This document shows positions 13,201-41,370 of a stretch of DNA of 42,552 nt, one piece after another. Made by a program: the position numbers and the translations under genes. Each line of letters begins with the position of its first letter. The first letter of the stretch is position 1. The stretch comes from Succiniclasticum ruminis DSM 9236 (GTDB lineage: Bacteria > Bacillota > Negativicutes > Acidaminococcales > Acidaminococcaceae): assembly GCF_900112895.1 (NCBI RefSeq), contig NZ_FONL01000015.1, positions 1 through 42,552 on the forward strand, read 5' to 3'. The notes beneath the pieces are model-generated. The model searched no databases, was not told where the DNA came from, and worked only from the letters and a program-made list of their open reading frames with translations.

Positions 13201-13455
13201 TTGTTCACATTCCTTTCTCTTTTATAATTTTTTATTTTTAATATTTATATTTTAGTCGTAATAGTAACTGCTGTGTATTGTGTGGAAAAGTACCGGATAC
13301 CAGCGTTTTTTCTCATCCACGGCTGTGCATAAACTGTTTATAGTGTGTAAAACTTTATCAACAGTATTGACAACCGTAAAAATTATCCACATTTATCCAC
13401 ATTTCAGTAACAGCTTATGAACATTTTTTAAACAGATGGTAAATTGCAGAGAAAA
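13201..13455. other. oriC: Replication origin, dnaA-dnaN part (oriC)
   Basis: This gap holds a cluster of DnaA boxes. Perfect TTATCCACA is at 13383-13391 and 13393-13401, and TGTGCATAA (TTATGCACA reversed) at 13324-13332. One-mismatch sites are at 13281-13289 (TGTGGAAAA), 13344-13352 (TGTGTAAAA), 13355-13363 (TTATCAACA) and 13412-13420 (TTATGAACA). On the dnaN side is an A+T-rich stretch. Between boxes and AT tract lies a candidate DnaA-trio. The layout (boxes, trio, unwinding element, dnaN) matches the B. subtilis incC/DUE side of oriC. All gene orientations in the window diverge from here. Confidence 0.9.
13210..13267. other. Candidate DNA unwinding element and DnaA-trio
   Basis: 13210-13252 is nearly pure A/T. 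Adjacent to it, 13253-13267 reads TAG TCG TAA TAG TAA, a run of TA(G/A) triplets on the plus strand as expected for the DnaA-trio that guides DnaA onto single-stranded DNA. The nearest box (13281-13289) is 13 bp away. One triplet (TCG) breaks the pattern. Assigned by analogy with the Bacillus origin. Confidence 0.5.
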
Positions 13456-21760: not shown

Positions 21761-22639
21761 GTGCAGGACGGATTCAACGATCTGAATGTTGAAACATTGA
21801 AAACAGACAATTTGCAAAAAGCTACAGACGTCCAGGTTCTTCATATTCCTCTTTCCAAAATCGTGCCCAACCCGTACCAGCCGCGTAAGGAATTTGAGTC
21901 GGAAGCCCTGTCGGAACTGGCAGATTCCATCCGCCAGTACGGTGTATTGCAGCCTCTCCTGGTAGCTCCGGGAAAAGGCGATACCTATATCCTCATTGCC
22001 GGCGAAAGGAGACTGCGGGCATCTACCATGGCGGGGCTGGGAACGGTTCCTGTTATTGTAAGCGAATATACTACCCAGCAGATAGCGGAAATTGCCCTGA
22101 TTGAAAATCTGCAGCGTAAGGATCTGCACTATCTGGAAGAGGCGGAAGGCTATGAAAAACTGGTTAACACCTTTCACCTGACCCAGGAATCCATGGCGAT
22201 CCGGGTAGGAAAAAAGCAGTCAACCATTGCCAACAAGCTGCGTCTTCTGTGTCTGCCGTCCCCTGTGCGCAAAAAACTTCATGACAGTGATCTGACGGAA
22301 CGGCACGCCCGGGTTTTGTTAAAGCTGGAAAATGAGGATCTTCAGAAAGCTGTTTTGCAAAAAGTACTGAAAGGGCATTTAAACGTCAGACAAACGGAAG
22401 CGCTGGTAGAAAAGACACTGAAAGAAGCAGGAAAGCTGAATCAGAAAAAGCCGCGGTTTGTGATTGTAAATGATGTGCGTATCTATTTAAACAGCATCAA
22501 AGAAATCATGGAGACAGTAAAAACGTCCGGGATTCCTTCCAGCATGGAGCAGGAAATGGATGGGGATGATGTCGTAGTGACCTTGCGTATCAAAAATGTG
22601 AAAAAGCGGAAAGACCCTAATGTTATTAAGCTTTTTTAA
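21761..22639 (+). CDS. noc: Noc-like ParB-family protein (nucleoid occlusion type)
   Basis: A 292-aa ParB/Noc protein: CTP-binding ParB-N domain with VPNPYQPRKEF, AGERRLRAST and LIENLQRKDL, then an HTH with KKQSTIANKLRLL. The Gln and Lys in that helix are the residues typical of Noc rather than ParB DNA specificity. Location after rsmG is the standard place for noc in Firmicutes. In Bacillus, Noc blocks division over the chromosome and has an N-terminal membrane-binding amphipathic helix. Here the N-terminus (VQDGFNDLNVETLKTDN) is acidic and shows no such helix. GTG start at 21761 behind a GGGGAA ribosome binding site. Confidence 0.85.
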   Translation: MQDGFNDLNVETLKTDNLQKATDVQVLHIPLSKIVPNPYQPRKEFESEALSELADSIRQYGVLQPLLVAPGKGDTYILIAGERRLRASTMAGLGTVPVIVSEYTTQQIAEIALIENLQRKDLHYLEEAEGYEKLVNTFHLTQESMAIRVGKKQSTIANKLRLLCLPSPVRKKLHDSDLTERHARVLLKLENEDLQKAVLQKVLKGHLNVRQTEALVEKTLKEAGKLNQKKPRFVIVNDVRIYLNSIKEIMETVKTSGIPSSMEQEMDGDDVVVTLRIKNVKKRKDPNVIKLF

Positions 22640-22648
22640 TACACAGCC

Positions 22649-22678
22649 TGTGGATAACCCTGTGTATAATGTGTATAA
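22649..22678 (-). promoter_or_regulatory. Cluster of three DnaA boxes upstream of parA
   Basis: TGTGGATAA (22649-22657) is the exact reverse of TTATCCACA. TGTGTATAA (22661-22669) and TGTGTATAA (22670-22678) are the exact reverse of TTATACACA, which fits TTATNCACA. All three have one orientation, with start-to-start spacings of 12 and 9 bp. The cluster lies 6 bp before a parS site and about 50 bp before the parA -10. Confidence 0.8.
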
Positions 22679-22684
22679 ATTATT

Positions 22685-22700
22685 AGTTTCACGTGAAACG
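22685..22700. promoter_or_regulatory. parS: parS centromere site 1
   Basis: AGTTTCACGTGAAACG matches the conserved 16-bp parS palindrome at 14 of 16 positions, with the inner 14 bp perfect. It lies in the noc-parA gap next to the DnaA-box cluster. ParB loads here, spreads and recruits SMC. Confidence 0.92.
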
Positions 22701-22723
22701 GACAGCGGATTTTAATCGTCTGC

Positions 22724-22732
22724 TGCTATAAT
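22724..22732 (+). promoter_or_regulatory. Extended -10 promoter of parAB
   Basis: TGCTATAAT (TG at 22724-22725, TATAAT at 22727-22732) lies 25 bases before the chosen parA GTG. No good -35 is present, fitting an extended -10. parS and the DnaA boxes are just upstream, so both ParB and DnaA could affect it. Confidence 0.65.
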
Positions 22733-22757
22733 GATGGAAGTATCGGAGGGGACTGTT

Positions 22758-23522
22758 GTGGTAAAAGTCATTGCGTTAGCCAATCAGAAAGGCGGTGTCG
22801 GCAAGACGACAACTGCCGTAAATTTGGCAGCCTGCCTGGCTGCAGAAGGGCGTAAAGTCCTGCTGGTGGATTCTGACCCCCAGGGCAATGCCACCACCGG
22901 TCTGGGGCTGGACAAACGGGATATCAAAAAGAGTATTTATGATATATTGATAAATGATGATGTGCCGGCAAAAGATGTAATCATACCGACAGCTTATGAT
23001 AATCTTTCCCTGCTGCCTGCTACGATCGCGCTGGCCGGTGCCGAGATTGACCTGGTCAATATGATGAGCCGGGAAAACCGGCTGAAAAACTCGCTGGAAC
23101 GGGTTAAATATGATTATGATTATGTGTTGATCGACTGTCCGCCGTCTCTGGGCCTGCTGACATTAAATGCGCTGACGGCTGCCAGTTCGGTTATCATTCC
23201 TATCCAGTGTGAATTTTATGCACTGGAAGGTGTTACCATGCTGATGAACACCATCCAGCGGGTGCAACGGAACCTGAATCCTGCGCTGAAGCTGGAAGGC
23301 GTAGTCATGACCATGTTTGATGCCAGGACCAACCTTGCGTCTGATGTAGTCAATGAAGTAAAGAAATACTTTTCTGCTAAGATGTACAACACAATTATTC
23401 CGCGCAATGTGAAATTAAGCGAGGCTCCCAGTCATGGGGAACCGGTGATCGTATATGATTCCAGAAGCAAAGGCGCCCAAGTGTATCAGGAACTTGCCAG
23501 GGAGGTAATCGGCGATGAGTAA
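22758..23522 (+). CDS. parA: Chromosome partitioning ATPase ParA/Soj
   Basis: A 254-aa deviant Walker-A ATPase (KGGVGKTT at residues 11-18; DSDPQGNATTG; later DCPPSLGLLTLNAL). It moves ParB-parS complexes and in Bacillus also controls DnaA activity at the origin. GTG at 22758 is preferred, with GGAGGGG about 6 bases upstream. The in-frame ATG at 22731 overlaps the -10 box and cannot be in the transcript from that promoter. The 3' end overlaps parB by 8 bases. Confidence 0.96.
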   Translation: MVKVIALANQKGGVGKTTTAVNLAACLAAEGRKVLLVDSDPQGNATTGLGLDKRDIKKSIYDILINDDVPAKDVIIPTAYDNLSLLPATIALAGAEIDLVNMMSRENRLKNSLERVKYDYDYVLIDCPPSLGLLTLNALTAASSVIIPIQCEFYALEGVTMLMNTIQRVQRNLNPALKLEGVVMTMFDARTNLASDVVNEVKKYFSAKMYNTIIPRNVKLSEAPSHGEPVIVYDSRSKGAQVYQELAREVIGDE

Positions 23523-24522
23523 GCACAGCGGTCTGGGCAGAGGCTTGGAGTCCCTGCTTTCTTCCAGTGAATCCCAGTATGAAACTGCCATACCCAAGGA
23601 TCCGGAAGGAGCGGTGGAAGTTCCTGTGGAAAGTATCAGGCCTAATCCGTACCAGCCCAGAAAAACCTTTGACAAAGAAAAACTGAAAGAACTGAGTGAG
23701 TCCATTAAAAAGCATGGCATCATCCAGCCCCTGATCGTCCGTAAAAAGGGCCTGAATTATGAACTGGTTGCCGGCGAACGGCGTCTGCGGGCTGCAAAGC
23801 TGGCAAAGCTGCAAACAGTTCCCGTCCTGGTCCGGGAATATGACGAAAAGCAGATGCGTGAGCTTTCCCTGGTGGAAAATATTCAGCGCCATGATCTGAA
23901 TCCTCTGGAAGAGGCAAAAGCAATCCAGGAGCTGATGAAGCAATGCAGCTATACCCAGGCTCAGGCAGCGGAACGTCTGGGGAGAAGCCGGGCGGCAGTG
24001 GCAAATCTGCTGCGTATGTTGAACCTGCCGGAAGAATTGCAGGCAATGATAGCGGATGAAAAGGTAACGGCCGGTCAGATGCGCCCGCTGTCAGCTCTTA
24101 CGGACAGGGAACAGCAGCTTAAAATCGGCAGAGCGCTGGCAGAAAACGGCTGGAGCGCCCGTACGGTGGAAGAAGTCGTCAAGACAATTAAAGAAGGAAA
24201 AAATCTTGAGGTCTTAAATGAACGGATCGTAATTCTGGATAAAAACGGCAAACCGGTAAAAGACCCATCTTCCGCAAAAGATAAGAACGGGAAAAAGAAG
24301 AAATCCGAAGCCGACATCCACTACAAACAATTTGAAGAAAATCTGATAGAAGCCCTGGGAACGAAAGTCCGTATCGTCAGCAAAAATGACAATGTGGGAA
24401 AAATAGAAATTGATTATTATTCGCTGGACGATCTGGATCGTATCTGTGAACTGCTGCAGGGGAAAAATGACAGCAGCAGCATTGACACGGCGCCCTGGCT
24501 GAAGACGAAGTTTCCTGTGTAG
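23515..24522 (+). CDS. parB: Chromosome partitioning protein ParB/Spo0J
   Basis: A 335-aa CTP-dependent DNA clamp. The N-terminal GLGRGLESLL helix is the ParA-stimulating motif. The CTP-binding part shows RPNPYQPRKTF, AGERRLRAAK and VENIQRHDLNPLEEA, and the HTH shows GRSRAAVANLLRML with the ParB-type Arg. A Lys-rich linker precedes the C-terminal dimerisation domain. It binds the two parS sites in this window. It overlaps parA by 8 bases, so it is co-translated with it. Confidence 0.97.
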   Translation: MSKHSGLGRGLESLLSSSESQYETAIPKDPEGAVEVPVESIRPNPYQPRKTFDKEKLKELSESIKKHGIIQPLIVRKKGLNYELVAGERRLRAAKLAKLQTVPVLVREYDEKQMRELSLVENIQRHDLNPLEEAKAIQELMKQCSYTQAQAAERLGRSRAAVANLLRMLNLPEELQAMIADEKVTAGQMRPLSALTDREQQLKIGRALAENGWSARTVEEVVKTIKEGKNLEVLNERIVILDKNGKPVKDPSSAKDKNGKKKKSEADIHYKQFEENLIEALGTKVRIVSKNDNVGKIEIDYYSLDDLDRICELLQGKNDSSSIDTAPWLKTKFPV

Positions 24523-41354: not shown

Positions 41355-41370
41355 TGTTTCACGTGAAACT
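41355..41370. promoter_or_regulatory. parS: parS centromere site 2
   Basis: TGTTTCACGTGAAACT matches the parS palindrome at 15 of 16 positions. It lies in the gap between the DUF815 and SGNH hydrolase genes, about 18.7 kb from site 1 and about 27 kb from oriC. Confidence 0.92.

Follow-up and report, generated by a model that had tools for sequence, protein, structure and literature searches.

In Bacillus subtilis, deletion of six DnaA-box clusters outside oriC causes early initiation (excerpts of the review PMC13220808, citing Okumura 2012), and among the regions that DnaA binds most strongly in vitro are one downstream of gcp and others upstream of yydA and of trmE; DnaA also appears to repress the trmE-noc operon, a neighbour of soj (both in excerpts of PMC4447404). 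For Escherichia coli, excerpted reports describe a high density of DnaA boxes near oriC (PMC12371093), a preference of DnaA for tandem boxes with 2 or 3 bp between them, and reduced DnaA binding at purH upon mutation of either box (PMC11317965 for both). Two systems join the initiator to segregation: in Caulobacter, DnaA acts at the centromere, with boxes at parS (Mera 2014, via excerpts of the review PMC6399470), and on Deinococcus secondary replicons, elements ahead of parAB are targets of both DnaA and ParB (PMC7671480, in excerpt). How chromosome copying is coupled to sorting is an open question, and the juxtaposition of DnaA boxes and parS described here, present over much of the genus Succiniclasticum, makes a compact place to test it. 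Among the open-licence publications listed as matches, none describes the noc-parA site at the level of title and abstract start, the nearest being the Deinococcus report (PMC7671480).

A DnaA-box triplet in the noc-parA gap

The window, by which we mean the whole 42,552-base stretch analysed, is one contig of a 2.54 Mb genome in 39 contigs. NCBIfam recognised dnaN, dnaA, yidC, jag, mnmE, mnmG, rsmG, noc, parA and parB in it, and the noc-parA gap measures 118 bp up to the parA start (Table 1). We took the dnaA-dnaN gap as oriC because the GC skew turns there, at 13-14 kb, and five TTWTNCACA boxes lie within it. The DnaA of this genome has the standard C-terminal DNA-binding domain (PF08299).

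An initial sequence-only reading had placed three same-orientation consensus DnaA boxes at 22649-22678 and judged a chance triplet very unlikely. We confirmed all three as exact copies of TTATNCACA on the minus strand, and three or more boxes appeared in 0/2000 shuffles (shuffle mean 0.0145 vs 3 observed). The distance to oriC, given in that reading as 8 kb, holds for the closest box upstream of dnaA (7.8 kb), whereas the dnaA-dnaN boxes are 9.2-9.4 kb away. Genome-wide, exact TTATNCACA occurs 85 times vs 49 for the reversed control, with 9 of the 85 in the window. Only three places in the whole genome hold at least three exact boxes in about 150 bp, namely oriC, the noc-parA gap and contig C30 (4161-4316); the noc-parA triplet thus shows the clustering of consensus boxes outside oriC that defines a B. 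subtilis-type extra-oriC cluster.

Table 1 Features of the noc-parA region and the oriC reference, in window coordinates.
Feature	Position	Strand	Remarks
oriC box cluster, dnaA-dnaN gap (reference)	13281..13401	.	box search; GC-skew turn 13-14 kb
noc (ParB/Noc family)	21761..22639	+	TIGR04285 310.3 bits, slightly below the 315 cut-off; TIGR00180 169.3 bits, above cut-off
Inverted box TAATACACA	22637..22645	+	one mismatch; overlaps noc stop; read from sequence; TACACA in 6/9 aligned genomes
DnaA box 1, TTATCCACA	22649..22657	-	exact TTATNCACA; 9 bp past noc stop codon
DnaA box 2, TTATACACA	22661..22669	-	exact TTATNCACA; offset 12 (3-bp spacer) from box 1
DnaA box 3, TTATACACA	22670..22678	-	exact TTATNCACA; offset 9 (no spacer) from box 2
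parS-like AGTTTCACGTGAAACG	22685..22700	.	2 mismatches to the 16-mer, both outer bases; 6 bp from box 3
Possible extended -10 TGCTATAAT	22724..22732	+	read from sequence; poorly conserved
RBS GGAGGGG ahead of parA GTG 22758	22745..22751	+	read from sequence; GGAGG invariant in 9 aligned genomes
parA (Soj-like ATPase)	22758..23522	+	top NCBIfam match a ParA family model, under cut-off; start set from alignment
parB (Spo0J-like)	23515..24522	+	TIGR00180 191.7 bits

Conservation of the boxes in relatives

For comparison, loci were chosen by ParA and not by boxes, and were found in 12/14 genus genomes; G001 and G003 (75 and 73 percent complete) were without a good parA match. The 53 family loci compared leave out L019, a ParA paralogue of G012 (56 percent) that lacks an upstream noc, and count G036 and G046 twice. 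The genomes are mostly drafts, and all of the evidence comes from sequence.

The sequence-only reading hinged on the boxes being conserved in relatives, and each of the 12 genus loci keeps a box cluster in the noc-parA gap. Ten gaps carry three exact boxes, one carries four, and one carries two plus a one-mismatch box; in every gap the observed number was reached by 0/2000 shuffles. Across 11 genus genomes, 2/24 box-core columns varied vs 4/6 free columns (Fisher p 0.007), in a test that omits L016, takes the best match per locus, favouring fixed cores, and compares related genomes. These results jointly indicate conservation beyond chance. In an alignment of nine genomes, the boxes and the RBS formed conserved blocks, and the parS core was retained in most.

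Among other genera of the family, at least two exact boxes upstream of parA were found in 1/41 loci, that of G024, a member of a sister genus with three boxes at identical 12/9 offsets, 1 bp past the noc stop. The second sister genus, represented by G042, has no boxes there, and since G024, G042 and the genus form one group in the ParA tree (support 98/92), the noc-parA home requires either two gains or a gain and a loss. Outside the family, 0/103 sampled Negativicutes (genomes at least 95 percent complete) had two or more exact boxes upstream of parA. An ancestral trait of the whole class is unsupported, with 2 exact boxes in the 40,997 bp upstream of parA in these 103 vs 4 for the reversed control.

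Other homes of the 12/9 unit

We searched the family for the unit TGTGNATAA-N3-TGTGNATA-N-TGTGNATAA with at most one mismatch, which revealed matches in 27/59 genomes and 7/18 genera (reversed control 0). By neighbour genes, most fall into three conserved homes: the noc-parA gap; a place beside a UxaE-like gene, whose other flank is malQ in the genus and an EamA transporter in other genera; and the gap between tsaD and a HisKA_2 kinase. One match, L120 (G008), belongs to none of the three. Triplets outside noc-parA were present in 12/14 genus genomes, with malQ beside the triplet in 10 (ORF clustering), and in the window's genome, on contig C30 (L082:4161-4316), malQ and the UxaE-like gene flank six exact DnaA boxes. 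Of the box pairs in the same direction, 150 were listed; their commonest spacers were 3 (32), 0 (26) and 12 (24), with triplets feeding all three. The noc-parA boxes are a known kind of element, new in placement and geometry.

Behind tsaD, neither exact nor one-mismatch boxes were found in any of 13 genus genomes (G013 over only 188 bp). At least two exact boxes, in as many as two triplets at a distance of 64 bp, stand there in 23 of the 38 non-genus family genomes scored; 7/45 were unscored (G016, G020, G021, G033, G044, G051, G052), one of which, G051, does carry a tsaD-side triplet (L118). On these sequences, the noc-parA cluster seems to stand in for the tsaD cluster of relatives. The sister-genus genome G024 carries both clusters, which fits a gain at noc-parA preceding a loss at tsaD, and the move would then have run from tsaD to noc-parA. 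Substitution of one place for the other is no rule, because the sampled g2, g5, g11 and g16 genomes have neither an exact box behind tsaD nor a cluster at parA. Moreover, the kinase found behind tsaD in G024, G038 and G042 had no match in any genus locus of the 13 (in four of them the downstream sequence covers only 188-600 bp), so that loss of the tsaD cluster may reflect a rearrangement and not a replacement. Downstream of tsaD in the window's genome lies a CIRCE-like inverted repeat (L373).

An exact triplet scan of species genomes returned at least 119 stretches (L125-L243), a collection that gives no frequencies; recurring neighbour families were named by Pfam, one representative each. 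Among the matches listed, 18 of the 119 stretches have a tsaD match no more than 300 bp from the triplet (e.g. L127, L138, L146, L165, L178, L207, L229, L238). We take gcp to be tsaD and yydA to be rlmH; the tsaD-side triplets then match the B. subtilis gcp-ydiF DnaA site, possibly an ancient DnaA cluster. Another recurring place among the 119 matches listed has a Mur ligase gene on one side (40 loci) and, on the other, a replication-initiation gene with a DnaB_2 domain (36), as in L126, L134, L150 and L193; an IstB-like ATPase gene comes next in 26 of these loci, nucleotidyl transferase is a further recurring family there, and the titles shown are largely Lachnospiraceae. Five listed triplets (L141, L162, L184, L186, L218) adjoin mraZ, with the MraW methylase beyond in several and titles shown from Patescibacteria/Niyogibacteria and Elusimicrobia. 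In six loci listed (L129, L147, L190, L200, L216, L225) the triplet adjoins a SPOUT methyltransferase (RlmH family) gene, near which a trypsin-like/PDZ protease gene also occurs; the titles shown are Lactobacillus, Enterococcus and Paenibacillus, and these triplets resemble the B. subtilis yydA site. The fixed 12/9 triplet offers a sharp search pattern for DnaA-binding clusters in Firmicutes and beyond.

parS and possible promoter elements in the gap

The near-perfect parS that the sequence-only reading had placed next to the boxes was confirmed, with the two mismatches given in Table 1. Allowing up to two mismatches, 8 parS-like places occur in the genome, the noc-parA site being one of them. 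The window has a second parS-like site, with one mismatch, at positions 41355-41370. Boxes and parS occur together in 8/12 genus gaps, and boxes without parS in 4/12; they are not kept together in the manner of a Caulobacter-type composite. In other genera of the family, parS with at most three mismatches lies within 400 bp of parA in 32/41 loci, and outside the family 43/103 Negativicutes have parS with at most two mismatches upstream of parA.

As for the possible extended -10, its sequence is readable where the sequence-only reading had put it, but TATAAT stands at that place in only 2/9 aligned genomes. A scan requiring both hexamers, with extended -10 promoters outside its scope, detected no plus-strand promoter in 22550-22800, and no terminator-like site was found in the same interval. 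The first exact box lies 6-9 bp from the noc stop in 9/12 genus loci, and the gap to parA varies over 107-222 bp.

Explanations of the locus

We favour, with a probability of roughly 0.6, the explanation that the triplet is an extra-oriC DnaA-box cluster for titration or initiation control, which in this genus would occupy the head of parAB and not the tsaD place. That the triplet is a DnaA-binding cluster is very probable from its boxes, and is the firmest part of the mechanism. The tandem boxes, at offsets of 12 then 9 bp, would be expected to bind DnaA cooperatively, and the E. coli preference for a tandem spacing of 2-3 bp fits boxes 1 and 2. Lying 9 kb from oriC, the triplet would be duplicated early after initiation and would most likely act as a DnaA reservoir; duplication would leave less free DnaA and delay re-initiation, as is thought for the six B. 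subtilis extra-oriC clusters, the analogy on which the titration reading is based. As a side effect or second function, the DnaA-bound triplet would probably lower, or time to the cell cycle, readthrough or transcription into parAB. The sequence-only reading had left a choice between a DnaA reservoir or initiation-control site and joint control of parAB by DnaA and ParB. The evidence favours the former, as the 12/9 unit has further conserved homes next to unrelated genes; joint control fared less well, given that boxes and parS separate both ways, the -10 is poorly conserved, and the boxes track the noc stop and not parA. Against titration alone, a cluster heading parAB fits gene regulation equally, and the C30 cluster with its six exact boxes could carry most of any titration.

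Gene regulation is the substance of the closest competing explanation, in which the triplet serves mainly as an operator: from its position behind noc, bound DnaA would repress or time parAB, by promoter occlusion or by a roadblock to noc readthrough, and so couple the segregation genes to the initiator. We regard this as a serious contender, at somewhat below even odds. The triplet does sit in the short gap ahead of the parA start, readthrough from noc would be possible where no terminator-like site was found (22550-22800), and the apparent repression of trmE-noc by B. subtilis DnaA (PMC4447404, in excerpt) points the same way; from this position and this reported repression, by analogy, an effect of DnaA on parAB is plausible. 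The boxes nevertheless keep near the noc stop (6-9 bp, 9/12) while the gap to parA varies (107-222 bp), the -10 is poorly conserved, and elsewhere the 12/9 unit adjoins unrelated genes. A more specific proposal is a composite switch, in which triplet-bound DnaA and parS-bound ParB act on one another and the initiator in this way licenses the loading of ParB or the movement of the centromere; we consider it unlikely. The box-to-parS distance is 6-7 bp in 7/8 genus loci having parS, and in the eighth (G004) it is 17 bp, about one helical turn more; Caulobacter and Deinococcus secondary replicons provide precedents (excerpts of PMC6399470 and PMC7671480). Yet 4/12 box-bearing genus gaps are without parS, parS occurs in 32/41 loci of other genera and at least two exact boxes in only one of the 41, the distance in G024 is 68 bp, and with 8 parS-like places in the genome the noc-parA parS is not the sole candidate centromere. 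We therefore lowered the strict DnaA-ParB composite, as parS and boxes occur apart. It is similarly doubtful that a triplet kept behind tsaD by many Firmicutes was re-homed to parS/parAB, with bound DnaA gating ParB loading or parAB expression; were this so, the initiator would directly license segregation, paralleling the Caulobacter link between initiator and centromere but independent of it. Natural variants are at hand among the relatives: in some the boxes are accompanied by parS, in others the boxes or parS stand alone, and in one genome both homes are occupied.

Two further explanations have far lower standing. A DARS-like element reloading DnaA with ATP is, on sequence comparison, very improbable. 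We compared the locus with the E. coli NC_000913 stretch downstream of bioD, which we assume to be DARS1, and with that upstream of mutH, taken as DARS2. Both have a tandem box pair with an identical 3-bp spacer and an inverted first box, and a weak inverted box is also present at noc-parA; this inverted box is, however, kept in only 6/9 aligned genomes, its spacer is 3 bp and not 5, and a third, abutting box stands at noc-parA where none was seen in the bioD and mutH stretches. An inverted box I facing tandem boxes II-III was thus not consistently found, and we rejected DARS homology on this ground. That the triplet is a second replication origin or part of oriC, as a DnaA-box cluster near dnaA might suggest, is the least credible of all: the GC skew turns at 13-14 kb, in the dnaA-dnaN gap with its own boxes, and not at 22.6 kb, and we rejected a second origin on this basis.

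Comparison with known systems

With E. coli DARS1 and DARS2, the locus shares one tandem pair with a 3-bp spacer, and differs from them in its inconsistently kept inverted box and its additional abutting box. It resembles the B. subtilis extra-oriC clusters (gcp-ydiF, yydA, trmE, ywlC, ywcI-vpr, sda) in having clustered boxes outside oriC, and the gcp (tsaD) place is common to other genera of the family; noc-soj is not among the eight strongest DnaA regions given in the excerpts of PMC4447404. The tandem boxes with a 3-bp spacer are like the E. coli double boxes (PMC11317965, in excerpt), whereas the noc-parA triplet has a third box abutting the second with no spacer. As in Caulobacter, DnaA boxes lie beside parS in the noc-parA gap, but the phylum is another and within the genus parS is not kept in every box-bearing genome. 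Like cisII and cisMP of Deinococcus, as excerpts of PMC7671480 portray them, the gap has DnaA and ParB sites jointly upstream of parAB, so that a joint reading has a precedent in Deinococcus DnaA and ParB binding, though the elements differ: cisII and cisMP belong to secondary replicons, function as origins and carry non-canonical boxes that overlap iterons, whereas the noc-parA gap has consensus boxes and a standard palindromic parS, with oriC elsewhere.
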